In this document: positions 1,904-64,000 of the stretch, piece by piece
Layout: the number at the start of each line of letters is the position of its first letter
Numbering within the stretch: the stretch's first letter is position 1
Assembly: GCA_011800155.1 (NCBI GenBank)
Contig: CM022370.1
Location: forward strand, 2,356,001-2,420,000
Direction of reading: 5' to 3'
Length of the DNA: 64,000 nt
Source: Flammulina velutipes
Lineage: Eukaryota > Basidiomycota > Agaricomycetes > Agaricales > Physalacriaceae
Notes under the pieces: generated by a model
Databases searched by the model: none
What the model was told of the DNA's origin: nothing
The model's input: the letters and a program-made list of their open reading frames with translations, nothing else
Translations under genes and position numbers: made by a program

Positions 1904-4900
1904 TTAAATATATGACGACAGATACTCCTTAGCGATGGAAACAGCCTCCTCGATCCTCTCCAGATTTGTACCCACTCCTTGGCTAGACTCTTCTTTGCCA
2001 CCAGCCTACACCTCAAGTAAGTCTATGCAGCGTGATGAAGAGATCACAACTTACCTTCCCGCCCAATATTTCGCTAACCTTGGCAGCCCACTCCTTCGCG
2101 TCAGCTCCCTTCTCTCGTAATGAAGGCGGAACATTGTTGACATGAGCAACCTTGCCTGCTTCCTCGTCGACGCTGAAAATGTACACAGGCTTTCCGAGTT
2201 TGCGACCTTGAAGGACAACATTCTGCAGGATCTGATATTTCCGCCAATGCAGTTTAGCGAAATAACACAACGCTCAGGTAGATCGCTGACCTTTGCATTC
2301 CCCTTAACGTCCAAAATAGCAATGTACGACTTTTCATCACCCTTGAAGTGTTGCTGTATCTTGTCGACGGCCTCCTTGTTCAATGCACTCTCCTTCTCCT
2401 TCACCTGCTTATCGAAAGCTTTCCTCATGGCCCCAAGGCGATCCTTCAGCTCAACCTTCTTGATTGCGGAAATGTCGGCTTGACCAAGTTCCTACAGAGG
2501 ATGGGTGAGTACCAGCGAAGCGAGGGACACGACAGCACTTACAACTCCGAGCGCTTTCATACCAGCATCCTTCGCCTTGCCCTCAGCCGCCTCTAACAGA
2601 TCAAGTCTTGCCTTGAACTCCGCTGCAACGCGAGTCACTTCGTGCGCTTCATTACCAGTCACAGCAATGATGCGGCGAATGCCTTTGGCGATACCCGATT
2701 CCTCAAGGATGACAAAGTCCTTGATATCACCCGTTTTCGCGACGTGTCTAAGAAACCGGGGTCATTAAAAGCCATATAAGTTAAAAGAAAACTTACGTTC
2801 CACCACAAAACTCGACGCTCGTACTCCTCCATTTGGGATTCTCGAGGTCCTTCGCAATCTCGTCAACATCAAACTCCAAGGTGACCAGCCTAACGGGATC
2901 TGGGTACTTCTCGCCAAAGACTGCGCGCAGACCCGGGATCTTGTACGCAGCGGGAAGTGATATATCCTTGCTGTAGACCTTGACGTTCTTCTTGATCCAA
3001 TCTTTCGATATCGTTTCAATCTTCTCCAGCTCTGCCGTAGTGATTGCTGATTTATGAGAGAAATCGAATCGAAGTTTTGTAGGCGCAACCAGAGATCCCT
3101 TCTGGTCGATATGGTCACCCAAGACCTCCCGGAGACCGAAGTTGAGAATATGGGTTCCAGTGTGGTTGTTTCTGAGAGGCCAACGACGGAGCTGTAAGAA
3201 TCGAGGTTAGAAATCTTCGTGGTTTCAAAGAAGTCGAAAAGTCATTGTACCTCGTCATAGGACGACACGACGTTGTCGCCGACCTTCAACTGCCCGTACT
3301 TCAGTCGTCCAGTGTGGAGAACATAGCCACTGTACACTTGGACGTCAGATACGTCGAAGTGCGCAACACCATCAATAACGATGCTTCCAGCATCAGCTTC
3401 CTGTCCGCCAGACTCGGCATAAAAACTGGTCTTGTCCAGTAGGATGCCAAAGCTGGTACCCTCCGGTATCTCTGACGTTGATTTCGGGAAGTTCTTATCG
3501 TAGTAGATGGCGATAACAGATGCGTCGATGTTACCCGTGTCTAGCAACGAATTAGTTTAGGGAAGACAATCACTTTTGAGAGAAAAGATAACCACGTACT
3601 GAATTTGGCGGAATCGTCGGTTTCTGGTGTTCCCGTTTTCTTGAGAGTGGACAAGTCGTGCACATCGAGTTTCACGATATCGGTATTGCCCGTCTTGCCT
3701 TGCGCACGACTGGCTTCCTTTGATTGCGCTTGGGCCTCAACGAACTCCTTGTCATTGATACCAAGGCCAATCTCTTCCGCCATCAGGCGAGTCAAGTCTT
3801 CCGGGAAACCAAAGGTGTCGTACAGCCGCCATACGTCTTTTCCATTGAGCTCCTTCAGGCCTTGTTCCTGTGCACGAGCAGCGTATTGCTCGAACAACTT
3901 CTCGCCGCGATCAAGAGTACGGGAAAACGATTCCTCTTCCTCGTCTAGTATCTCTTTGATTTCATCGACACGCTTCGTCAATTCGGGGAAGGCGTGTCCC
4001 TATTTGTCGCGTAAGGATAGACGATTTCTTGAATGTGTACAATGAACCCACCATAGTTTCGACGACAACAGGCATCAGAGAGGAGAAGAATGATCCAATG
4101 GTGACTCCCAGCTTCTTGCGGGCGAAACGGGCACCTCGACGGAGAATCCGTCGTAGGACATATCCTCGGCCAATATTGTTTGGAACGCCGCCATCGCTGA
4201 GCGCAAAGGTGAGCGTCCTAACGTGATCAGCAACCACTCGGTAGGCCGTGTCGATACCGTCTTTATCCTCTGCTCCAAATCTACCTTCATATGGACGTAC
4301 ACCTGTGATTTCCTGTACTCGGGCAAATATAGGCGTGAAGACATCTGTGTCGTAGTTGGAAAGCTTGTCCTGAACGACAGAGACGAGACGTTCGAATCCC
4401 ATTCCAGTGTCAACATGCTTCGAAGGTAGAGATTTCAGAGATCCATCGTCTTCGCGGTTGAATTGGATGAACACGTTATTCCATATCTCGAGCACATTCG
4501 GGTCGTCTTGATTGACAAGGTGAGCTGCATTTCGACCTCCAATGCGGTCATAGTGTATTTCACTGGAAGAGTGGTTAGCTGTGCCATTGCGGATATGGAT
4601 GTACTAACCTGCAAGGACCACAAGGACCAGTTGCTCCCATTTCTGTAGCAAAATCAATATAAGAAAGTCGATAAAACGAGGAAACATACCCCAGAAGTTA
4701 TCTTTCGCATTTCCAGGAATGATATGATCTTCCGCGACACCTTGGTCAAGCCAGAACTGCTTAGCTTCGAGGTCGGGTTCAAGTCCATTCTTGGGATCTC
4801 CTTCGAAGTAGCTAACATATAGCCTGTCTTTTGGAAGCTTGAAAACTTCAGTCAAGAGTTCCCATGAGTACGCGATGGCTTCTTTCTAGGTCGAATAAGC

Positions 4901-5516
4901 AGAGGGCGATGGAATGCAAACGGAGGAGGTACTTTGAAATAATCTCCAAATGACCAATTTCCTAGCATTTCAAAGAAGGTGTGGTGGTAGGAGTCTTTTC
5001 CGACGTCTTCAAGATCTATCGGAGGCTGTGAGGAAGGTACTGGAGCGAAGAGTGTGGCGCGAACCGTTATGTTTGCCTCCTGCGCGAATACACTAGAGGA
5101 TGGTTACAACATGGTATGATCTGGGAGGCTGTACTTACCTTTTGAGAGTTGTAGGCGCGCTTTAGCTTTGCCATATCAGAATGAGGGTCTACTGTGCCCA
5201 AGAAGATAGATTTATACTGCACTTAACCATTAGCGCCGCGAGTAGTGACACGCAAATCACTTGCCTGGTTCATTCCTGCATTGGCAAAGAGCAATGTGGG
5301 ATCCTCGAATGGAATTGTGGGCGACGATGCGACAAAGGTATGGTCTTTCGAGCGGAAGAAGTTGAAGTACTCTTCGCGGACTCTGGCTGCAGACCATGGG
5401 CCATTTGGAGTAGTCGTCGACATTAGCCTCGTCGTCGTTGTCGTCGGCAGCTTGCAGATACGGCAGGGATGGTGGACGTTGAATCTGAAGATGCGAATCG
5501 ATGAACGGAGTGACAT
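1904..5516 (-). CDS. ALA1: Alanyl-tRNA synthetase, probably cytosolic and mitochondrial forms
   Basis: This class II synthetase charges tRNA-Ala. The order of segments fits the family: a catalytic core ([20 protein letters not shown], then [19 protein letters not shown]), a tRNA-binding domain, an editing domain with the HxxxH zinc site ([18 protein letters not shown]) and the distal cysteine motif SVEFCGGTH, and a C-Ala domain. The last exon ends [15 protein letters not shown]. The gene has many short introns; total length is about 1,000 residues, as usual. The first Met gives an N-terminus rich in Arg, Ser and hydrophobics and free of acidic residues (a mitochondrial presequence), while Met32 ([10 protein letters not shown]) would give the cytosolic enzyme. 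It faces the bL34m gene across 73 bases. Confidence 0.93.
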
Positions 5517-5589
5517 TGACTCGGAGGTATCACGTGGGAGAAGGAAGAAGAGGGGGGTTAGGGTTGCAACGAGTTTTCTTTAGACCACC
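5517..5589. promoter_or_regulatory. Bidirectional promoter, ALA1 / bL34m
   Basis: Only 73 bases separate the start codons of alanyl-tRNA synthetase (minus) and mitochondrial ribosomal protein bL34m (plus). Both genes must therefore be driven from this gap and from overlapping 5' ends. The stretch contains a TCACGTGGG E-box-like palindrome (CACGTG near 5531) followed by a purine-rich GGAAGAAGAGG segment. I see no TATA box. The role of the CACGTG is inference. Confidence 0.55.
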
Positions 5590-5928
5590 ATGCCTCGTTT
5601 GCCGACTGCCTTGCTCCAGGCAATACTCAGACCGCCAACTCTGGCGCGCGCTCTGCCGTTGGCCCGTCGCGCCTTTGCGCCACCAACAATCCCCAACTTT
5701 GCGCCAACGTCCTTCTTGTCTTCGCTCTTGTCCCCCACCATTCTACCCCCATCATCTATCCTTGGCTCTATACAGCAGCTCAGATTCAGGACTTTCGGAA
5801 CAGAATATCAGCCGTCACAGAGGAAACGCAAGCGCAGACACGGTTTTCTCGCGCGTCTGAAGAGTAGGACGGGCAGGAAGATACTGGAACGGCGCAAGGC
5901 TAAGGGCCGCAAATACCTTTCTCATTGA
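5590..5928 (+). CDS. MRPL34: Mitochondrial large-subunit ribosomal protein bL34m
   Basis: A single-exon gene of 112 residues. The N-terminal 65 residues are rich in Arg, Ala, Leu, Pro and Ser with no acidic residues, as expected of a mitochondrial targeting sequence. The C-terminal 45 residues carry the bL34 signature: [20 protein letters not shown], then [19 protein letters not shown]. bL34 binds 23S-type rRNA in the large subunit. Its neighbour across the shared promoter also has a mitochondrial job, so co-regulation is plausible. Confidence 0.93.
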
Positions 5929-8500: not shown

Positions 8501-8789
8501 TAGCAAAAAATGGTAGATAGTGAAAGTAGCAGGGCAAGAGAGCGACTCGGCTATATAAATCAGTCGGCCTCGCAAGTGACCAACAATGGCTCACGTGCGC
8601 GCGTCGTCACACGATTGTTCGTCACACTAGCTTCGCGGCGGACGATTGTTCAAATTTCAGATTCAAATTATTTGCATTATATAGGTCGTCAAATTAGAAT
8701 CCACAGAAGGTACAATGGGAACCAACATAAGTAAGATGCATGAAAACCAAGGGAATGTGTGAGTGATATGCGAATAAGGAAAAGAGCGA

Positions 8790-11700
8790 CTAAAATCTTC
8801 GAAGGCTCGGTCCACCACCAACGATGCCCTCTATTGAATGATGCTCCAAATCATTCCGTGCCTTCAGAATCGATGCATGCATCTCCCGCATTACAATGCC
8901 CAACTTGGCACCGAATCTGTTCAGGATATCCTTCTGCCACGAATCGTACTTGGCGTTGACACGCGACTGTACTTGTTCGTAGTCCACAACACACGCCCCA
9001 AAAGATTTTTGCGTGTCCGAGGTGTCAAATGTCGAACGAGCCTTCTTGATCTCCGTGAGAAGCTGCTGCCAGTGCGCAAGGGAGTCACCGAGCTTGTTAA
9101 AAACATACTCGGCTTCCAGATCCCAAAGAGATTGGAATTGAAGCCACTTCGCGACGTATTCCTTCAGCTGCTGGACTTTCGCTTCGATGAGCATGAATGG
9201 TCTTTGGAGTGACTCGGAATCAAGTTGCGTCAACTGCCAGACAATGAGTATCTAACGCGCCAGCAGAAGACAACAATCACGGACCAAAGACGTATATGTC
9301 ACTTCACCGAAAACGGTGCTCTGCATTTGCAAACCAATCTCGTAACGAGAGCTCTGTATCCTTCGTAGGCGACAGACAACACCTGGTATACACCATCAAC
9401 CAACGAAAACAACTGAGCATGAAAATGTATACCTAGCCATTCATGCAATTGATGTACCCACGACGCTCTTGCGTGCTCGATCGGTGGGTCCAAGAAGATA
9501 ACCTGATTCTGTATGCGAATCTCGTGAACGAGGGGTTTGAGCGTCATGTTACCCTCGAGGAACTAGAGGATTGGAATCAATAAAGGGATATAAGCGGTAG
9601 GATGTTTTCGTTCACCTTCTCTTCTTTCATCCGTTTGTCACCTCTCCGTTTGTTCATGATGTCCCTCATGGGCATGTCCCGTCTCATGTCGCCATCATCA
9701 GTCTTGTCGAACTCTTGACACCAGACTTGAATGACTTGTTTAAGCCGCTGTAGGAGAATCGCTTCGATTGACTTGTCAAGTTCGGACACCCAGTGTTCCA
9801 GGTTTGCGTATCCTTCAAGATTCAGTCGATCGATCTGAGAGGTAAAAAGTAAGAACACAGCTAGCAAAACAGAGGTGTTTACTTACAGCAGCTTGGATCT
9901 TGCTTAGTAACTCGGTGAAGGCCACGAAGGTATACGAACAAGTGCCCAAGTCCTCAATGGCACGCTGGATGTCTTTGTAGAGGTCGATTACATTATTTGT
10001 CTTGTCCTTAAATCGGATGTTAGATACACCCGCAGTGAAATACACCTACACACCTGGAGAACGGAAACGATGCTGGCAAACTCCCGCACGAACTGGATAT
10101 GACGGTTGTCCCGGCCATCGGCGCCTGCTACATATCTTCCAGTGTCGTACTGGTTGACGAAGTAGTCCCAACGAATGTTCATGCCTGTTTGAGCTTAGTA
10201 CATGTACATGACGAGTTCAATGGCGACAAAACTGACCTTTCGTGATCATCCTTTGCGACTCGTTCCGGTATTCCGCAACCAGCCATTCGATGCCCTTGTT
10301 GTTCTCGACAAGGTCCAAGGTCTGTCCATATGTCCTAACTGTCTCCATTAGACTGACAGCGTGTGGATAGACCCTTTTCGCATCCTTGGCCATGTTCGTA
10401 ATGGCGTGCGGCACTTGGAAATTCAACCAAAGCAAGTTGCGGACCTCCTTGAATAGCGTTATAATCTGGGGATCAAAGTTGACTGCCAGCTGGAATCCTC
10501 CGCCCCGTAGCCGAACGATTTCGAACAGCCGTCCGTCGACTCCCATGTTGCGTCGATTGATATCGTGAAGCCATGCCTCGTACACAGGACGAGTATCCAA
10601 CTTCTTCCGGAAAGCGTTGCTCTCCGTCTGTAGTTTCTGACCTTCAGCGTAGAGTTCCCAACCTTTACCCAACACATCCTCGACGCGTTTCATATAGGTT
10701 AGAAGTTGTCGGTCTATTTGGCGAGCCCATATGATGGCGCCTGCTATTGGTGGAAGATCGCGCATTTGTGACATGTGATAAGCTTCTGAATATCGATATT
10801 GCGTTTTGAACTGAAAACTCATAAGCGAGAGGGTCTAATAATATCTGGGAAGCGCAAACCTTGTCATGAAGATGTTTGATATCTTCTTTCACTGAATCGA
10901 TGAGCTGTGTTTGATATTCTTGGATAGCGCCACGAATCTAGGGTAAGGTAAGTTATGAGTTCCACATCTTGTTCCAAGCGGACTTGCCTTTGGTCGAACA
11001 AATAGGGCATTGAATTTGGAGAAGACGCGGAACATTTCATTGGCATTGCGAGCGGTACCCAATTTGTCGCGTAAGCGAGCGATGATTTGGTTCTCCACCC
11101 TTGACACCCGTTCATTGTACGCGTTTTCGGCAGCTACCCAGATTTCTGTTCCCTCTATAGCGCAAGATGAGATGAAATTGGGTCGATAGTGTTTGAGTAC
11201 GCACCAGTTGAGACATCTAGGACGTCAATCCTCTTGACTACTTCATAAGCCTCCTTGACTTCCTCCTCCATATCCATTCCGCCAACCTCCATCCCCACAG
11301 ATCCAAGACCTTTGGTGGGGCCAGTCATGACCGCTAACTGCTCGTGTTGCTTTCTCCAATCTCGAAGGTATCGCGTCCGTTCCTGCAGTTTCGCATGCGC
11401 CGGCACCACTTTGATAGGAATGAACCTCTCCGCACGCTTCCTCGTCACCTCACGAGCCACATTCGTAAACTCCTTCATCAAGTCATCCCAGGTTCTGAAG
11501 ATATTTTGAGTCTGGGAGAGAAGACGGTCGAACGTTTCGTAAGGAGTGTAGGGAAGGCGATGTGATGTTAAAATCCGTAAAAGTTGGTCGTTGAAATCTC
11601 GTGAAATGGCTTCGACGAGGGGAAGGGCACGGCGGATGGGGTATGGAGAGAGTCGGAGCTTCCTATTTATGTGGCCGAAAATGAGTACAAGGGATTCCTG

Positions 11701-53087: not shown

Positions 53088-55301
53088 CTAAATAACAGGT
53101 CTTTTTTCCTCTTCAAATCCTTTCACCGCTTTTCCTTCCAGACGCACTCGCTTCAGTAACAAACATAACAAGAACTGCAGCCCAGCCACTCCAATCAAAA
53201 CATAGAACGAGTCTGAAAATGCATGGCCATAAGCCGTAGAAAGAATGCTCCTGCTCACACCCTCGTTCAAAAGGGAGGCTGGATCAGAATAGTTAGGCTA
53301 CTCTCTATTGTCAGTACTTGACATATATCGAATGATCGAACTCCACCTTGGTTCGAAACGCCACAATTCCTTCTAGCTTCCTCCTCAGTCCGTCTGTGAG
53401 AATCGATCCAACCAGAGTCACTCCAATAACTCCACCAAGAGGAGTCGTTGTCGACATTAAAGCGGTCACAGTAGGCAAGTTCTCCATGTCTTGTCCTTCT
53501 TGTGCGACTACGAATGAGATTTGGGTACCCTATGGCCGATCAATCGTCATAATACTCAAGACAAATAAATTACTCACCGCACCGAAACCAAGCCCACATA
53601 CTATAGAGTATCCAATAAGAAGCCCCAAGGAGCTTCCCCCATCCAAAGTTGTCATTAATGACAAACCCACCAATAGGACGACCAATGAACAAAGCAAAAT
53701 TGGACGAACAATACCTGCGCGCGCAGAGACCGCGCTGCATATCCCGCTACTAACAGAGGCAGTCGCGAGGAAGGGTATGACGAGTAATGCAGAGACCAGT
53801 ATCGACATCTCGAGCACAATGTGCAAGAAGATAGGGATGTAAAACGTCTGTTCCGCTAACATAAATCACCGGGATTATCCTTTTGATATCAAACTACTCA
53901 CCAGCGCAAAGAGGTGGAAGAAAAGCAGAGTTCGTACCACCAACATGAGGGGAAGATTTCTCCCCTTCCATAAAGTGAAAAGTCCAATTGGCGCCAAAGG
54001 TTTCTCCGCCCACCATTTTTCAACTGCTACAAAAGCCAAAAAACTAGCTCCGGATCCGACGAGCAATCCAATAACGGTCGAGGAGCTCCACGGACGTGAT
54101 TGGCCACCCACATTGAGTGCAATAACCAGAAGCGCCAAACTCGTGGTTATCGTCAACATTCCGCCGACGTCTAACTCCGTTGCCATCTGCCTGATCGAGA
54201 TAGCAACACGTTGGGAAGACGGCGGGAGACGGAGAGTAAAGAATAGGACAATTGTGACTGCCAAAGCAGTAATGAGGATGTGATCATGGGTGCAGACGAA
54301 TGAAACTCACTGAATGCACCGCAAGGAGCGTTGAACAAGAAAATCCATCTCCACGACGCTTCCAATGCGAAAGCTGATCCAAGAACTGGTCCTATCGCGT
54401 CCGCGACGATAAAGATGATGTTCACCAGGTTCATGTATAGACTTCTTTCTCGCTCGTCTGTCAACTCTGGAGAAGAAAATCGAAATTTTAGCTCCGTCTA
54501 AATCTGGAGGAGTACATACTCACCGGTGATAATTATACACGCCAATGTCAACAGGCCTGCGCCTAGTACGAAACCCGTCAAAATCAATGATATGCTTAGA
54601 AATTGTATTGCTTACCTCCTACCCCGCTGACCAGCTGGCCTGCGACCAGCTGCGTGAGGTTTTTAGCAGTACCAGCGATTATGTTACCGACCATGAAGAC
54701 CCAAAGTTCGGTGATGAGTAAATTCTTTTGACCAGAAACTGCCTACGCAAAAAAGCTTGTAGGAACCCATAGTCAAAATGACAGCGCACAATGCGTACCG
54801 CCAATCTGCCCATTATGGGCATGAACGCCGTGGACGTCAAAAGATAGGAGCTAGTAATCCACTAAAACGCAGATAACACTCAATCCATTTCCAAGTGGCC
54901 TAGGGAAATGCTTACAGTAATTGATCCCTCGATATGCAACTTCGACGCGATCACTGTCGCACTGGTGGCCACGATGGTGTTCGCTGAATGATAGCAGTAG
55001 TCAGGTTAGTCATTCGATCCATGTGTAGTACGGTGCACGTACCAATAGCATATAGAAAAGAACAAATTCCAAGACTAGGTACATCATTGAGTGCCTCTCG
55101 TGTGTGAAGAATTCGTCCGACTGACCTGCTCAGCAGAAGCACAACGCGCCCGCGAGACATCGATTTGAATCCCATCTGAATGGTGGCTTCCTCGGCGGAC
55201 GAACTACCTTGGAGCCCATTCGTAGGAAGCTCGCCTAGCTCCGGTTGAGAGAAAGAACAATGTTCGTCGACAGTAGGCGGGTCGTTCCTCTTCGAGCCCA
55301 T
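53088..55301 (-). CDS. MFS exporter, DHA2-type drug:H+ antiporter
   Basis: This is a major facilitator of about 570 residues, probably with 14 TM helices. A 60-residue hydrophilic N-terminus leads into the helices. Antiporter motif C is visible as DAIGPVLGSAFALEASWRW, followed by IFLFNAPCGA. Further helices include LLTITTSLALLVIALNVGG-like sequence, VIGLLVGSGASFLAFVAVE, LLCSLVVLLVGLSLMTTLDG, LLIGYSIVCGLGFGAGTQIS and a last helix VLIGVAGLQFLLCLLLKRV. Substrate cannot be told from sequence. It is the first member of the run MFS, RNR small subunit, SAMHD1-like, all on the minus strand, so it could export a product of that group; that is inference. Confidence 0.88.
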
Positions 55302-55576
55302 TGTCGTAAGATCCGTCGCAAGGGAATAAAGAGAGAGAGCGGCAGACGTCCTGAGGCCATCTTGATTCTTAAGTAAAAAGTAACTGGATCTGATCGGAGG
55401 TGGCTCATGAGGCAGGCAATCACAAGGAGTCGGACATACGCTTGCTCGTCCATCAAACAGCGCAAGTAGCTACACCATGGGGTCGCTCCCATGGCCGGTT
55501 ACATTCAATTACGGGTACATGCCAAACTTGTTCGTACATTGATGATACATTGTCGATGAGTCGAGACTGCCCTCGC

Positions 55577-56881
55577 TCAAAAGTCTTCGTCCAAAGCACT
55601 ATTGTTCTAGTACGTTAGCATCGGAAGCGTGGATCACGGATTATCACCAACCTAGACACAGAAAACGTGGCAATCTCCTCCTTTTTGCTGTCCTTCCCTC
55701 CAAATCCTGCACGCGAGTACTCACTTACTCGGCGTTCGAAGAAGTTCGTTTTTCCTTGGAGAGAGATCATGTCCATGAAATCAAACTGCCGTGCCGATGA
55801 GTCATCTGTAATACACTCTGGCAAAGGCGACGTACGGGATTTTGGACATTGTAGACCTTTTCCTGTCCAAGCTCACTGAGGAGACGGTCAGCGACGAATT
55901 CGATGTATTGCTTCATCAATTCTGCGTTCATTCCAATCAACGCCACTGGGAGGGCGTCTAAGCGTAGTTCAATCAATAATATCGCTAAGGAATCGGAGAT
56001 GCTTACCAGTCAGAAATTCCTGCTCAATCTGAACGGCCTCCGTGATGATTCGCTTCACAATATCCGGATGGGGCCGCCTAAGCAGATGTCTGAAGAGAAC
56101 ACACGCAAAATCAGTGTGCAGCCCCTCGTCCCGGCTAATGAGCTCGTTCGAAAAGGTAAGTCCAGGCATGAGACCCCTCTTTTTCATCCAGAAGATACTG
56201 GCGAATGCGCCAGAGAAGAAGATGCCTTCAACGGCTGCGAAGGCGACGAGACGTTCAGCGAATGTCGATTCCTTGTCGCTGATCCATTTCCTCGCCCAGT
56301 CAGCCTTTTTCTTGATGCACGGGATGCGCTCGATGGCGCTAAAGAGATGGTCGCGCTGCGCCTCGTCGCGAATGTACGTGTCGATGAGGAGTGAGTACGT
56401 CTCGGAGTGAATGTTCTCCATCATAATCTGGAAACCATAGAAGCAGCGCGCCTCCGCAGCCTGCACTTCACTGCTGAAGCGCTCGACGAGGTTCTCGTTG
56501 ACAACGCCGTCAGATGCAGCAAAGAACGCGAGGATGTGCGATAGGAAATGATGTTCGTTGGGCGTCAGAGTAAGCCAGTCCGCGAGGTCTTTGGTGAGGT
56601 CCATCTCTTCAGCAGTCCAAAAGGATGCCTCCGCTATGAACAATATTCAGTAGACGTGCATGGTACGACCTGGTCGTACATCTACCTTTCTTGTACATAT
56701 CCCATATCTGATAAAGATAGTGAGTATGGAGCAAAGCACGGAGTACGGAATGATTTACCTCTGGAAACTGGATTGGAAAGAGAACGAATCTTCTGACAGA
56801 CTCCTTCAGCAGGGGTTCGTCCTGCTCTTCGCAGTGGATGTCGCCTGCGAAACGGTCTTCAAGTCGTTGTTCGATAGCCAT
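55577..56881 (-). CDS. Ribonucleotide reductase small subunit (R2)
   Basis: This is the diiron/tyrosyl-radical subunit of class Ia ribonucleotide reductase. It starts [20 protein letters not shown] and [20 protein letters not shown], a shorter N-terminus than usual in fungi. Metal ligands and the radical Tyr are all present: the Asp of AEEMDLTKD, Glu and His of MENIHSETY with its terminal Tyr, Glu of VEGIFFSG, and Glu/His of [29 protein letters not shown] and the radical-path Tyr of VSEYSRAGF follow. The last intron lies just before ALDEDF, an acidic C-terminal peptide ending in Phe that docks on the large subunit. The short first exons (IWDMYKK) are intact. It lies 276 bases downstream of the MFS start codon. 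Confidence 0.93.
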
Positions 56882-58278
56882 ACTACAGTCGGGTAAATTC
56901 GAGTTGGTTCTTGCTTAAACTCCCGCGGAGATTCGAAAGCATTTGAAGGCTTGAGCCAAATCAGGCCGGCGGTATTGTTGGTGCGGTACATATCATGGAC
57001 AACGTCATACTAGCAAGGACCATGCCATCGTGGACTCCGTTCGTCGGGGGTAGTCGGCAAACCGGTGGAGGTAGGAAAGGTGGTGAGGTAAAGCCGCGCT
57101 CTCGTCTGCATATTGTAATGGGGAAATGGCATGCATCATGGTACTTAGAACATTTCTGGATATCGCAGCACCAGCACCCTCTTCCGGGCTCATATTCGCC
57201 ACGAGACCAGTACCGAGAAGTGCCTTTCGGTGTTCCTTCGTGAGAATAGTAAGGTTTCATTGTTGAAGCGCCACTCACGGCCCCAATGGCGTTTTTAGTG
57301 AATAGCGATGCGTGTCAACGAGAATCTAGCTATTCCTAGCTCCCCAAGTCATGCTTGGCCGAGTGCGAGTAAAAAATAGCATCGTTAGCCGCGCCAGTAA
57401 ACTTGAGTCCGGAGCAATCCAGTCGTTTTTTGTGAGAAAGCAGTCGACTGTAGCCGATCGTGGTCGCTCAAGTCAGAAATCACAGAAGCGTTCTATGATT
57501 ACATAATGACGGGTTTCCCACGCTTTGCGTTTCGAGCCACCTTCGATGAAGGCATTCAATTCAGACGCTGCAGATCCTTAGGCCGTAAAATAAGTCTTTC
57601 TGTGATCCAGAACCAGGTATTCAAACCTTGAGATTGACGTTGATACAGACAATTATCATGAGCGATGGCGACGGATGATGACGGATGAATGTACGCAATG
57701 AGCTGCTTTGACTCGATATTTGGCCAGGATAGACACGGCGAAGATAGTCCTGATTTTTCGGCCTTTGATTATGAATATCAAAATTGATCTATGGAGGGCC
57801 AGGGTTGGTCATTAATGCTCGCGATAAAAAGCGACTGTAAACGAGTACAACACATCGAGCACAGGTTCAGATCTCGGTGATAATTCTCGCTTAAAGAAGG
57901 TCTTTTACCCACGTACTTCCAGGACCCCGTCTTGAAGATACCCATGGAGAAACAATGCTTGGGTGCGGTGCCTCAGTGTGAGGTCTCAATCAGCGCACGA
58001 CAATGTTTTCGGGGTGAGAACTCGTAAAAACTGTGACGTTCTAAGAGAACTCCCGACAACCGTGTCGCCTTCCTTTCCGCGACAGACCTGGGAAATCTCC
58101 GGTACGGAGATTGGTTTGACTTTTCCTATCTGGAGGTTGAGAAGAGCCTAAGCAGTAGCATGCTCCACAGATGTGGCATTACTACGTCTTATACCAAGTT
58201 AGCCTAGTTACAATTTCCGGAACATTTTGCTCGACTATTTCAAACTTCTTTACAATCGCTATGGTACATACTAATTTG
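56882..58278. other. Intergenic, 1.4 kb, RNR small-subunit promoter region
   Basis: This is the longest gap in the window, between the start of the small subunit and the stop of the SAMHD1-like gene. A minus-strand open frame at 56961-57278 encodes a Cys-containing 105-residue peptide, but I recognise no family and see no supporting introns. The rest is gene-free. It may hold a long promoter or a small gene or non-coding RNA I cannot see. Confidence 0.35.
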
Positions 58279-59928
58279 TCAAGTCGCCTTCATTGACTGA
58301 TTCAGAAGAATATTGAAAGCAGCACGTATGACCTCTGTGTACCTGCGAGGGCTTTAATACTCAACAACTCAAGACACAGAGCAAGGTACTCACTTCTTGT
58401 CCCTCGTGTACGGGCGCACCATGACCTCAGCAAAAACTTTCGGGAAAATGAGCGTCATGTCCTGAGGAGTGAGACGAAATGATTCTGTAGGACGATTAAA
58501 AGCGATCAAAAAGAGGTCATACTAAGCACTTACTGTTGTTACTCTCGCCTTTACCGCGATAGAACTTGATGGTTTCGAAGGGATTCTTGTCCTTCATGCC
58601 CCAGTGTAGAGGCGTCACGTCGATCAGAACATGATCTTCGCGAAGCTCGCCAACGAGTGAGTATGCGGGATGAGACTCACTCAGACTCTGGGCCGCCTTA
58701 ACGACATTCTGAGGTGTAAGAACAGACTTGATCGTTGGTCGTATAGACCAAGGAAGATGGACCGTATCAACGATAGAATAGAGATCGCGAATTCGAATGC
58801 GTCTCAGAATTGCCTGAGCAGTGGCTAGTTCGGGAGCCGAAGAACGCTCGATCTCGAGGACGATTTCATCGGTGAGATACAAATACTGCTTGGGATCTTC
58901 TATGCGCTTGGAGATTCCAAGGTGGGAATCGGCAGCAAGAAGGGCGTCCACGACCATACACTCGATGGCTTTTCCTGCTACACTATGAGTACACCATCTG
59001 ACAGTTGTAACAGAATACTCACGGGTCTTATGGTTATAGATACCATACATCTTGTAACGCGTCTGGTAAAGGTTAAAGACTGTGTGTACATCTCTCTGGT
59101 TGTAACAGATCTCGCCATCTATCACGCGTGCAGAATGGATGAGACGTAGGGCAGCCCAGTCTCCTCGGTCTCCTGTAGCGAGAAGATCTCGCGCGATGTA
59201 GTCCCATTTGTCGACGTCAAGGCCGTTACGCTTATTAGCGACGATGTCGAACAAGTACGACTTTTCCGGAGGAGAGTAAGACTTTGTGTGCTTCGCCTCT
59301 CCGGTGATGAGATCCTTGACGAACGCAACATCCTGAGGAGCGAGTGGGACATTGTTCTCAGCGACGAGAACATCAAGCATGATTTCCGACTGGTCTTCAT
59401 GAGTCCAATTCCCTTTGGGCCTAGGGACTGTAAATAATCAGAAAACTTTGAGGTCAAAAAAGCACGTACTGAGAGAGCGGCATAAAGTGATTGTCCCAGA
59501 CGTGACTAAATGGACCATGTCCCAAGTCATGACAGAGTCTACGAAATTAGGATTTAATTGACAAATATTCATAATCAACTCACCCAGCGATTTTGACACA
59601 GGCAACGTCTCTTGGGGTGATACCGAGATCGGGTTGCTGTTTTTGTAGGCTCTCAACCATGAGACCAGCCAAGTGGGCAGTACCAAGACTGTGCTCAAAA
59701 CGATTGTGCGATGCGCCAGGCCAAACGAAGTATGCCAGGCCCATCTGCTTGACGTATCTCAGACGCTGGAATTGAGGACTAGAGAAGGAATTAGTTAGAC
59801 AAAGTAGGATAATGAAAGACGGACGTGTCCACGATAGCGGTCATCAGAGGAGAGAGTTCGATGTAGTCAAAGACGTTGTCGTTGAAGATGCGCATGTCGC
59901 CTGAAGGACCGTAGATAGCGTTGGCCAT
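58279..59928 (-). CDS. SAMHD1-like HD-domain dNTP triphosphohydrolase
   Basis: SAMHD1 enzymes cleave dNTPs to deoxynucleoside and triphosphate. This copy, about 450 residues, begins [20 protein letters not shown] without a SAM domain. The HD metal site is complete: His of [11 protein letters not shown], His-Asp of [12 protein letters not shown] and the distal Asp of [13 protein letters not shown]. The sequence [15 protein letters not shown] matches the helix that holds the allosteric guanine contacts of human SAMHD1 (Asp, Gln and Arg). C-terminal segments [38 protein letters not shown] and [20 protein letters not shown] also follow human SAMHD1. The last exon ends [11 protein letters not shown]. 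It diverges from the large subunit of ribonucleotide reductase, the enzyme whose products it would destroy. Confidence 0.9.
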
Positions 59929-60742
59929 AGTAGAACGTACGCAAGAGAGGAAGGGGAAGCTGGGGCAATTTCTTTTGAGAACAAAGGCAAGTGGTGTTCA
60001 AAGGACATGCCAAGTGCTTCACTTCGGCGGTTCGCATCGCAAGGCAACTGAATAGGAAGGGACACGAGTGGATAAACGGAGATGGAGCTAGATGAAGGTA
60101 TAGAATTACGGAACGGACACCCCAGAACCGGCAGAAACTTGTCGAACAAATAACGACAAACGGTCGATCGTGTTGGAAAGTTCAAACCTGATCGACTCCC
60201 ACACTCGCCTCCAGCTTTGCCATGGCCCTTTGCTCCATATCACCTCTTCCGCAGTGTTCTCGACAGCACAATACAGTCACTCTTACTGTCAACTATGGAC
60301 CTCAAGCCTCATGACTAGATCTGCGGCCAGTCCGCTTCCCAAGGAATTCGTCCCTTTACAACTACAACTCTGCCCCCAATATCATTCCTTACGGAGAGGC
60401 CTTCTTTCCTTCGACTGACTCGACGCATTCATACGGAGAAACGGGCCCCGCTGCTCTCCATCCTTGCGATCATGTGTATTGATATTGAGCGCTTACCCGT
60501 TCTGAAGTTGCTGTTCGTAACACCTGCTCCATCGACTTTTCTGACGCCAAGATGAAATCATCGAATTGAAAGGAACTCGCACAAAAGGAACTATCTTATT
60601 CTCCCGTATTCTCCATTACACCATCCGAGCTTCCGCGCACTAAGAACAGACGACTATAAAGGACATGTCCTTGTCTACCAGATTCTCCCCCCTCCCGCAG
60701 CTTACCTCCCCCATATACGACAGTTTACAGTCTTTTAGCATT
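59929..60742. promoter_or_regulatory. Bidirectional promoter, SAMHD1-like / RNR large subunit
   Basis: The two genes diverge across 814 bases. TATAAA at 60655-60660 lies 83 bases before the large-subunit ATG. No gene is visible; short open frames show no domain. Opposing enzymes of dNTP metabolism share this region, which may allow joint or alternate control. The gap itself contains no ACGCGT MCB box, though two occur just inside the large-subunit gene. Confidence 0.5.
60655..60660 (+). promoter_or_regulatory. TATA box of RNR large-subunit gene
   Basis: TATAAA in CGACTATAAAGGACATG, 83 bases upstream of the ATG. The position suits a leader of roughly 50 bases. Confidence 0.5.
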
Positions 60743-63700
60743 ATGCCCGCTCTACTTTTGAAGCGCGATGGGTACGTTCTCCCTTTTAAGGCAGTTGTAC
60801 TAGTAACTCATTTTCGTTCTTAGACGCGTGAGTTATTGCGACGCGTCAATGCTATAGCCGTACTCATACATCCTCTATATACAGGAGGAGAATGTCGACA
60901 TTGACAAAGTAAGTTCAACGAAATTCTTGGACCTTCAACTAATGTCGGACCACAGCTTAGAGCAAGAGTAGTCAAGGTCTGCAGTTCATCGCGCACCTCG
61001 TACATTTACTAATCTCGTCAAAGGCTTGCCATGGTCTTGATGTCAATCATGTCAATCCGAACGAGTACGTGGATTGATGAGACATATTTGCCGTTTATTG
61101 ACTATAATTTTCGCAGAATAGTTGAGAAAACCATCGCTGGTGTATATCCCGGTATCACCTCTATTGAGCTCGATGTTAGTTTCCAATCTTTTTAAGTTCT
61201 TGGATGACTCCTGACACAAAATGTGTAGAACCTGGCGGCAGAGACAGCTGCATACTTGACCACTCGTCATCCAGATTACGCCACACTTGCTGCCCGTATT
61301 GCAGTCTCAAGGCTGCATAAGGAAACGAAAGAGCGCTTCAGCGATGTCGTTCAAGATCTACATGCATATGGTATATTCTATAATTGTCTATTGATGCATA
61401 CCTGATTCTCTGCGAAGTTCAACCAAACACGGGCGGAAAGCGAGCACCCATGGTCTCAGATGAGTTCCACAGAATCGTCATGCATCACAAAGACGCATTC
61501 GATAGCGCCATCAATCATGAGCGGGATTTGGGCTATCAATAGTCAGTTTCTTCCAAACTCACACTGTCTTCCGCGCTAACTGGGACTTAGTTTTGGCTTC
61601 AAAACCCTTGAGCACTCTTATCTCCTTCGCATGAACGGTAGAGTTGCCGAGCGTCCTCAGCACCTTCTTATGAGGGTTGCAGTCGGCATCCACGGCGATG
61701 ACATCGAGCGGGCCATCGAATCCTACGAACTCATGAGCCAAAAGTTCTTCACTCACGCGTCTGCAACGCTGTTCAACTCTGGCACCACGAGACCCCAAGT
61801 CTGCTCATGCTATCTCACTTGCATGCGAGACGACTCTGTCGAAGGTGTCTTTGAGGCTCTTACCACATGTGCTCGTATCTCTCGCCACACTTCGGGCGTC
61901 GCAGTCAGCATTTCTAATCATCGCGCGAAGGGGTACGACTATAATTGTCGCTGTGGTTATTTGTCCTGACATTATATATAGCTCTTACGTTCCCGAGACG
62001 AATGGCCGTGCTGCGGGGCTAGTTCCAATGCTCCGTACTTTCGAGGCGGCGTCCCGATATGTCGACCAAGGAGCTGGGAAACGCCCCGGAACTTTTAACA
62101 TGTTCCTTGAGCCCTGGCACGCAGATGTCTTCGACTTTTTAGACATCCGCAAGAATAGCGGCAAGGAAGAATTGCGCGCACGCCATCTCTTCTGTGCGCT
62201 TTGGATCCCAGACCTCTTGTGAGTGCAACGCTGTAGTGATTCATACTTCCATCCTGACGACACACAAGTATGAAACGCGTTGAGGCGAATGCGGACTGGA
62301 GTTTGTTCTGCCCTAGCGAGGCTCCTGGCCTGAACATGGTATACGGGAATGAATTCGTGGAATTATACGAACGTTACGAACGAGAGGGGCGCGCTAGGAC
62401 CACAATCCCCTCTGCAAAGTTGTGGCAGGCCATAATCACGGCCCAAATCGAGAGTGGTGGCCCTTTCATGCTTTACAAGGATCACGCAAATGGTAGGTCG
62501 ACATTCACCTCCCAGTTATCTCGTAACTGACACTTCAACTTCCTAGCCAAGTCCAACCAAATGAACCTGGGGACCATTCGTGGGAGCAACCTGTGCGTTG
62601 AGATTATCCAGTTCACCTCTCCCGAAGAGGTCGCAGTATGCAGTGTGGCATCCCTTGCCCTCCCAGCCTTTGTCCGTGACGGGCGATTTGACTTCGAACA
62701 GTTGCACTACGTTGCAAAGGTCCTCACCAGGAACCTCGACCGCATTGTCGACATCAACTATTATCCCGTTCCCTCTGCACGCACAGGAAACCTCCGCCAC
62801 CGGCCCCTCGGCGTTGGTGTGCAAGGTCTTGCAGACGCGTTCATGCGCTTGAGAATCCCGTTCGACTCGGACGAAGCGCGCACACTGAACAAGCAGATCT
62901 TCGAGACCATCTACCACGGGGCTTTGGAAGCAAGTGTCGAGCTCGCTGAGCGATATGGACCGTACGAGACCTGGAACGGTAGTCCTGCCCAGCAGGGAAA
63001 GTTGCAGTATGATCTGTGGGGCGTGACTCCCAGCGACCTATGGGATTGGCAAAGTCTCAAGGTGCGCATCGCGGAGAAAGGCTTGAGGAACTCGCTGCTT
63101 GTAGCTTTGATGCCTACTGCTACGACCAGCCACATTTTGGGTAACAACGAGTGTTTTGAGCCTTACACGAGGTTGGTGGATTACCCTTCTGAAGTGAGCG
63201 TCGGCTAACTGTCATGCTAGTAACGTCTACACGCGCCGCGTAACTGCCGGAGAGTTCCAAGTCGTTTGTCCTTGGTTGCTCCGAGAACTCGTCGACCTAG
63301 GCCTTTGGAACGAGCGCATGAAGAACCAACTCATTTCCCATGGCGGCTCTATTCAGAACATCCCGGGAATCCCGGACGACATGAAAGCAATCTACAAGAC
63401 GGTCTGGGAGATTTCGCAGCGACGCATCATCGATATGGCTGCTGATCGCGGTGCATTCATCTGTCAGAGCCAGTCGTTGAACATCTTCATCGCTAAACCA
63501 TCGGTGAAGCAATTGGTAAGTCTTCTGTTCTACTGGAATGATCGTCTGAATCGTAACAAACTTTCTTGTAGACTGCGATGCATTTCCATGGCTGGAAGAG
63601 AGGTTTGAAGACGGGACTTTAGTGAGTAATATGTTCACATGATGATCAAGACCTGACGGCGCTGCCTCAGCTATCTGCGCACACGTCCTGCCGTTGAAGC

Positions 63701-63797
63701 CATTCAGTTTACTGTCGACAAGGCCATGTTGGCAAAGGACACTGACGAACAGAAGAAGACGGCTGGGGGAACGGTGAACGGCTTGAGTACCAAATGA
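60743..63797 (+). CDS. Ribonucleotide reductase large subunit (R1), divergent, lacking C-terminal redox Cys pair
   Basis: The large subunit carries the active site that turns NDPs into dNDPs. It starts [20 protein letters not shown], an ATP-cone, joined through a 4-nt exon. The core continues [39 protein letters not shown] (first redox Cys), [19 protein letters not shown] (radical Cys and Glu), [12 protein letters not shown] (second redox Cys) and [13 protein letters not shown] (radical-path Tyr pair). Specificity loops deviate: [17 protein letters not shown] and [19 protein letters not shown], where the family usually has GTNG(T/N)SNG and GG(G/N)KRPGAFA. The protein ends [16 protein letters not shown]; the C-terminal CxxC-type tail that re-reduces the active site is missing, and I find none in the next 200 bases. 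About 800 residues, some 90 fewer than usual. About a dozen introns. Confidence 0.93.
60824..60829. promoter_or_regulatory. ACGCGT, MCB-type (MBF) box
   Basis: A palindromic ACGCGT that overlaps the 4-nt exon and the next 5' splice site. In yeasts ACGCGT boxes bound by MBF drive G1/S transcription of ribonucleotide reductase genes. Function here is inference; half of it is fixed by coding and splice needs. Confidence 0.3.
60841..60846. promoter_or_regulatory. ACGCGT, second MCB-type (MBF) box
   Basis: A second ACGCGT, 17 bases after the first and inside an intron. Paired MCB boxes at this spacing are typical of MBF-regulated genes in yeasts, but those usually lie upstream of the ATG. Confidence 0.3.
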
Positions 63798-64000
63798 GTG
63801 AAGTTGAAGGCGTAAGAACAAAAACTGTACAATATGTGTAACTTGAGCAATTGGCTCTGTATTTGTATCACATTGTCAATGTCATACTTCCGAGGGCAAA
63901 TACGTCGTCATTTCGCGCTAGCGGAGGATCGCTATATTTAACATTGAGCATTCACTTCCTCCTTACTAGGAATCGTACCCGTCTGCTAAATAGCGCTATA
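63798..64000. other. 3' flank of RNR large-subunit gene
   Basis: The last 203 bases contain no recognisable gene. I searched all three forward frames for a spliced-on tail with paired cysteines and found none. Confidence 0.4.

Follow-up and report, generated by a model that had tools for sequence, protein, structure and literature searches.

We analyzed a 64,000-nucleotide (nt) stretch of the Flammulina velutipes genome (C3:2356001-2420000 of a 38.1-Mb assembly in 23 contigs), here called the window, in which genes for a major facilitator superfamily (MFS) transporter, a ribonucleotide reductase (RNR) small subunit (RNR2'), a SAMHD1-type protein (SAMHD1'), and an RNR large subunit (RNR1') stand in a row in that order. 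On balance we favor, with modest confidence, the reading that RNR1' and RNR2' are a dedicated, neofunctionalized RNR of the class Ia type, a linked pair that would work outside S phase. A preliminary description, made from the window alone, had called the four genes a specialized second set. For the two RNR subunits this stands, given canonical copies elsewhere in the genome, clades of their own, apparent linkage in three other species, and clade-wide changes near the active site; a conserved module that also includes SAMHD1' is not shown.

Results

RNR1' (positions 60743 to 63797, + strand) was modeled with 15 exons and 780 amino acids, and RNR2' (55577 to 56881, − strand) was modeled as a spliced gene for 349 amino acids (Pfam PF00268, Ribonuc_red_sm; E value of 6e-118). 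The spliced models of both genes and of SAMHD1' are stop-free. The genome search for canonical RNR1 and RNR2 genes that the preliminary description had proposed favored a second set: it found a full-length RNR1 with a normal tail, CSLENPDACVMCSG, on contig C5, while C6 and C2 carry RNR2 genes and C1 carries another SAMHD1. Because canonical-type RNR1, RNR2, and SAMHD1 genes thus lie on other contigs, the cluster is a second set. In trees, the C5 RNR1 clusters with Cylindrobasidium (support of 86) and both with Hymenopellis (99), and the C1 SAMHD1 clusters with Mucidula (95); the source is accordingly most likely a member of Physalacriaceae, the family to which we assign these genera.

RNR1' is 66% identical to the C5 RNR1 and repeats 8 of its 12 exon lengths as modeled, including a micro-exon of 4 nt (60824 to 60827 in RNR1'); two additional introns lie close to the end of RNR1'. 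Origin as a retrocopy was rejected because introns are retained, and a viral origin was considered unlikely because RNR1' and RNR2' are placed among Agaricomycete RNRs and RNR1' has the micro-exon and the eight exon lengths in common with the C5 gene, although no collection of viral sequences was scanned.

Besides the C5 and C6 genes, three RNR-like sequences were seen in the genome outside the cluster. The C2 RNR2 (L023, about 4520-5597) is a third paralogue with the radical-Tyr motif, a long branch (1.11), and an ambiguous C-terminal end. An RNR2-like match on C7 (L027, about 4799-5578) is strongly diverged and below the Pfam cutoff, and its spliced reading has no radical-Tyr motif. An RNR1 fragment on C13 (G000:C13:112599-112888; L025), near the C5 gene in sequence, is seemingly a decayed copy.

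To place the proteins of the cluster, 5.8 billion proteins were searched; only the 7998, 7985, and 7999 candidates with the most shared words were scored, and the best 120 were listed for each query. Trees were built from 42 of the 120 RNR1, 37 of the 120 RNR2, and 39 of the 120 SAMHD1 matches together with the genome's own genes. Among its best 120 matches, RNR1' has four close relatives, two from Gymnopus androsaceus and one each from Lentinula aciculospora and Rhodocollybia butyracea, with 73 to 80% identity; the remaining listed matches show 65 to 69%, and one shows 54%. The same three species, which we take to be Omphalotaceae, supply the three close relatives of RNR2' among its best 120 (80 to 85% identity). 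Each set forms a fast-evolving clade with a Shimodaira-Hasegawa-like approximate likelihood ratio test (SH-aLRT) value of 100, on stems of 1.3 (RNR1') and 1.27 (RNR2') substitutions per site. Within the lists of 120, Hymenopellis and Cylindrobasidium have canonical RNR1 only and Mucidula has canonical RNR2 only. The second Gymnopus RNR1' copy (P0001, on a contig of 171,611 bases) has the gene of Lentinula aciculospora as its sister. The best-matching literature on Gymnopus, Rhodocollybia, Omphalotaceae, and Physalacriaceae, as listed, did not mention RNR.

In all three relative species, an RNR1' copy and RNR2' lie on contigs of the same size (274665, 102573, and 1488590 bases), while canonical RNR1 and RNR2 do so in 0 of 26 strains picked by eye from both lists (Fisher test, P value of 2.7e-4). 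Because of this difference, the RNR1'-RNR2' linkage is likely old, or has been kept.

RNR1' retains the ATP cone, all-alpha, and barrel domains (Pfam PF03477, PF00317, and PF02867). Aligned to yeast Rnr1 in the PDB, its residues C432, N430, E434, C221, and C447 match yeast C428, N426, E430, C218, and C443, to which we assign, partly from general knowledge, the roles of thiyl Cys, Asn, Glu, and active-site redox Cys pair. The catalytic Cys, Asn, and Glu and the second redox Cys are present in all five clade members, and the first redox Cys is present in four. RNR1' and its four relatives also keep the Tyr pair of YYLRTR, presumably the C-terminal radical-transfer pair.

What the RNR1' model does not have is the C-terminal CxxC. 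The motif is absent from the window model and from all four relatives, which have no Cys in their last 45 residues, and is present in 114 of the 116 remaining listed matches (the two others are P0018 and P0080). An alternative GT..AG intron of 43 nt (63774 to 63816, + strand) would yield the tail ...NKNCTICVT; since the tails of all four relatives are free of Cys, this intron was considered unlikely and set aside. As described in part of PMC3483043, the CxxC arm of class I RNRs brings reducing power to the active site, and a portion of PMC3618301 has the arm coming in from the adjacent subunit.

A large subunit with its redox arm gone and its domains retained might have little activity itself and act instead by associating with canonical RNR1, which it would damp or retune. 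This would be comparable to the C-terminal domain of Neurospora UN-24, which interferes with RNR during nonself recognition and whose PA domain forms a nonreducible complex with yeast Rnr1p according to the same portion of PMC3618301. However, UN-24 incompatibility requires the extreme C terminus, which RNR1' does not have, and RNR2' has been retained with its radical motif and an altered docking tail and seemingly travels with RNR1'. We give a regulatory partner little credence.

The changes in RNR1' are concentrated in one stretch. We compared the clade with 39 canonical rows (38 matches and the C5 gene), taking as eligible every column in which at least 95% of these rows agree. At 41 of 433 eligible columns, all clade members with a letter there differ. 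Residues 206 to 303 (61763 to 62105, + strand), which cover the first redox Cys, the specificity site, and loops 1 and 2 (limits of the loops from PMC3483043), hold 20 of these 41 changes in 74 eligible columns (P value of 6e-7). The stretch was picked after inspection of the data; in permutations that scanned every stretch of equal width, 0 of 300 matched this concentration. At the first redox Cys, RNR1' and clade members P0001 to P0003 carry a CxC (residues 219 and 221 in RNR1'). Loop 2, DQGGNKRPGAFAIY in canonical proteins, is replaced by an altered 14-residue sequence, in which the Gln and Arg named for substrate choice in the part of PMC3483043 drawn on here are both retained. P0001, P0003, and P0004 have an additional Cys (VAVCTC) close to the second redox Cys.

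Such changes might be expected of duplicates drifting under weak constraint next to chance neighbors, with no new function. The long branches of RNR1' and RNR2', the eroded-looking ATP cones of P0002 and P0004, and a SAMHD1' linkage not seen elsewhere would fit drift. Against it, full-length RNR1' models were obtained for five genes in four species, 246 of 372 canonical-invariant columns are identical in all five, the placement of the changes in residues 206 to 303 is nonrandom, and the contig sizes agree in the clade and not among canonical pairs. We think drift very improbable.

RNR2' is colinear with mouse and human R2 across the core. It keeps the radical-Tyr motif EARCFYGFQ, with Tyr at 114, and has the diiron-site motifs, single ligands being judged by eye; the roles of the ligands and of the Tyr are those that we take them to have in the family. 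Its exons lie at 56759-56881, 56686-56707, 56007-56633, 55836-55957, 55652-55785, and 55577-55598 (− strand) and end in the tail ...ATFSVSSALDEDF, for which the intron was picked from several options by resemblance to proteins P0241 to P0243. The gene model has no canonical N-terminal region: 21 residues precede EPLL in RNR2' and 15, 15, and 33 in its relatives, whereas the median for 116 others is 81 (one of them has 35). The docking tail is altered clade-wide, reading FSVSSALDEDF in RNR2' against FVLDEDF in the C6 RNR2. The small-subunit docking heptapeptide is of the FTLDADF type (part of PMC3483043); RNR2' ends in ALDEDF, and its first Phe, like that of its relatives, is farther from the terminus than in that type. 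RNR2' looks active.

RNR1' and SAMHD1' are divergently transcribed, with start codons 814 nt apart, and the region between them (59929 to 60742) contains no MluI cell cycle box (MCB) core. In all intergenic DNA of the cluster, the core (ACGCG/CGCGT) occurs 0 times in 2612 nt, with 5.5 expected. The C6 RNR2 has four full ACGCGT sites in 1 kb upstream, with 0.3 expected (P value of 2e-4), and the stretches upstream of seven MCM genes together contain 23 full sites against about 7 expected, a count that includes coding DNA and two near-identical duplicate genes. Those two MCM genes (L036 and L037, on C3, about 407 kb apart) are 96% identical over 2.2 kb, with the likeness extending upstream, and represent a recent duplication or an assembly duplicate. 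Full ACGCGT, Swi4/6 cell cycle box (SCB), and E2F-like motifs were all at zero in the cluster's intergenic DNA; so few were expected that this says little. The missing cores suggest that RNR1' and RNR2' may lie outside G1/S control by the MCB-binding factor (MBF). In the basidiomycete Cryptococcus, the MBF-like Mbs1 controls RNR1 induction under replication stress, according to the portion of PMC9431586 concerned.

SAMHD1' (58390 to 59928, − strand; exons 59825-59928, 59584-59778, 59470-59538, 59023-59420, 58534-58977, and 58390-58484 in the spliced model) has 434 amino acids, a Pfam HD match with an E value of 3e-10, and no SAM domain. Its residues 8 to 431 align to human SAMHD1, with the HD metal site and the strictly conserved Arg kept, as judged by eye. 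In the tree its clade holds Gymnopus, Cylindrobasidium, four Mycena species, and a metagenome fragment (93% identity over 62% of the query); Rhodocollybia and Lentinula aciculospora have no member among the best 120 SAMHD1 matches. The Gymnopus androsaceus copy lies on a contig of 405,382 bases, and the RNR1' copies lie on contigs of 274,665 and 171,611 bases. Because the SAMHD1' contig differs from both RNR1' contigs, its placement amid the RNR genes seems, on present evidence, to be particular to this lineage. A careful tree of 16 matches and the window protein hinted, by a short path (0.41), that SAMHD1' might have moved horizontally between this lineage and that of Gymnopus; transfer is unsupported because a single clade of the window and Cylindrobasidium proteins was not rejected (approximately unbiased [AU] test, P value of 0.23).

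The preliminary description had seen four adjacent genes with no unrelated recognizable gene between them, which the gene models and Pfam matches bear out, the 1.5-kb gap between RNR2' and SAMHD1' holding only frames with no Pfam match. Its linked synthesis and hydrolysis pair holds in this genome only: because SAMHD1' belongs to a different, wider clade and its Gymnopus copy is on a contig of another size, a conserved synthesis-plus-hydrolysis module is not shown. The RNR pair warrants the interest that it saw in the locus, but its claim of a "module" needs to be cut back.

The MFS transporter gene (TRI12-like; about 53100 to 55302, − strand) has several short exons, and its model is partial with approximate limits. 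Single open frames match Pfam MFS_1 (E values of 9e-9 and 3e-5) and TRI12 (3e-7), and pieces assembled by eye match MFS_1 at 3e-25. We take the protein to be of a drug-efflux type common in fungi.

The gene content and the divergent SAMHD1'/RNR1' pair invite a reading in which RNR1' and RNR2' make deoxynucleoside diphosphates, these are phosphorylated, SAMHD1' cuts the resulting deoxynucleoside triphosphates (dNTPs), and the transporter exports deoxynucleosides, or a compound derived from them, to serve as signal or toxin. Fungal-derived deoxyadenosine drives plant root cell death, as reported in part of PMC12671557, and a study of a fungal SAMHD1 speculates, in the portion of PMC12042053 used here, on deoxyguanosine affecting plant immunity. 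However, the deoxyadenosine of that precedent originates from extracellular DNA and not from RNR (PMC12671557, same part), the Gymnopus SAMHD1' contig differs in size from both RNR1' contigs, and two of the three RNR1' species other than ours are missing among the best 120 SAMHD1 matches. The transporter gives no sign of nucleoside specificity, and no tailoring gene beyond an oxidoreductase (see below) was recognized, no search aimed at one having been made. We regard this reading as unlikely.

The efflux-type transporter, the clustering of RNR1' changes at nucleotide-binding places, and the patchy distribution among the matches listed could also point to self-resistance or tolerance, with an altered RNR duplicate withstanding an inhibitor or nucleoside analogue, SAMHD1' hydrolyzing the analogue triphosphate, and the transporter pumping the analogue out. 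Loss of the arm should, however, reduce activity, and no adjoining core biosynthetic gene was recognized, again with no dedicated search. No literature uniting RNR, self-resistance, nucleoside, and biosynthetic gene cluster was found, which is neutral for this reading; we consider it distinctly doubtful.

The gap between RNR2' and SAMHD1' (56882 to 58389) is single copy and contains no recognized gene; two open frames tested there had no Pfam match. A repeated element was rejected, the sole DNA match in the genome being the gap itself. Just beyond the window end lies a gene for a Gfo/Idh/MocA-type oxidoreductase (L028:355-1614, − strand), tail to tail with RNR1', which could belong to the same gene group; a U1-zinc-finger gene follows it outside the window. 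The gene flanking the other side of the cluster has no Pfam match and is presumably ELL-like. An open frame that, by one motif, resembles a piece of a cytochrome P450 lies about 19 kb past RNR1' (L029, about 8738-9028; virtual window 82738-83028).

Discussion

RNR1' and RNR2' share with canonical class Ia RNR (fungal Rnr1/Rnr2; C5 and C6 genes) their domains, their catalytic, redox-pair, and radical-transfer residues, and most C5 exon lengths. They depart from it in the missing CxxC arm of the RNR1' model, in its altered specificity site and first and second loops, in the absent N-terminal region and altered tail of RNR2', and in the linkage of the cluster genes and their lack of MCB cores. 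The cordycepin cluster of Cordyceps (Cns1 to Cns4) likewise has an oxidoreductase and a transporter near what we take to be an HD-family phosphohydrolase. Here, in contrast, the transporter is MFS and not ABC, an RNR pair is present, and the HD enzyme is of the SAMHD1 type (Cns roles from part of PMC6632035); no Cns3-like gene was recognized among the neighboring frames inspected, in which no dedicated search was made.

Mammalian p53R2, yeast RNR3, and Cryptococcus RNR22 are likewise extra RNR subunits that are nonessential or differently expressed (portions of PMC3267527 and PMC9431586), whereas here both subunits are duplicated, linked, and codiverged, and the large subunit lacks the redox arm. 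Neurospora UN-24 is also a large subunit with a second role (part of PMC3618301); unlike RNR1', it is the organism's essential RNR (part of PMC9431586), and its second role needs the C terminus that RNR1' is missing. The SAMHD1 of Rhizophagus irregularis (PDB 9MR6; part of PMC12042053) is another SAMHD1-type HD protein without a SAM domain, and 9mr6 is among the matches of SAMHD1'; SAMHD1' differs in belonging to a short Agaricales clade apart from the genome's own C1 copy. No literature joining RNR, SAMHD1, and a fungal gene cluster was found.

Several points weigh against a neofunctionalized pair. The MCB comparison was made post hoc and its effect is modest: 18 of 603 overlapping background windows are equally MCB-poor. 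The C5 RNR1 has five MCB cores and no full ACGCGT in 1 kb, the C2 RNR2 has one full site in 1.3 kb without clear enrichment, and the PCNA and thymidylate synthase genes show no clear enrichment either. Linkage in the relatives is deduced from matching contig sizes, the contigs themselves being unread, and the RNR2 tree carries a long-branch warning. The tail loss depends on gene models, and the 43-nt intron could supply a CxxC in the window gene. The P0004 model lacks the segment with the first redox Cys, perhaps through a splice error. The ATP cones of P0002 and P0004, judged by eye, fit relaxed constraint and new function alike.

If RNR1' and RNR2' are nevertheless a dedicated reductase, a radical formed in RNR2' would pass to RNR1', which would reduce ribonucleotides under different allosteric control, with expression independent of G1/S (MBF) control. 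Resetting of the active-site disulfide of RNR1' might fall to the canonical RNR1 tail within a mixed oligomer; alternatively, thiols could achieve it through the additional Cys of the active-site CxC. As the weakest step, the products of the pair may be clipped to deoxynucleosides by SAMHD1' and exported, or dNTPs may be held in check. Release of deoxynucleosides is conceivable because SAMHD1' and the MFS gene adjoin the RNR pair in this lineage; their export is speculation. A bolder version is a long shot: a clade without the class I redox arm, reset through its resident CxC (219 and 221) or the canonical RNR1 tail, with rewired specificity loops, would catalyze the committed step of a pathway to a deoxynucleoside metabolite or signal.

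The re-reduction of RNR and the tuning of its specificity loops have been studied mainly in essential enzymes. A natural, linked, and possibly dispensable RNR pair that lacks the arm and has both loops changed would make it possible to test directly if an RNR can bypass the arm or obtain it in trans, and RNR1' and RNR2' may offer a window on deoxynucleotide use outside replication in mushrooms.

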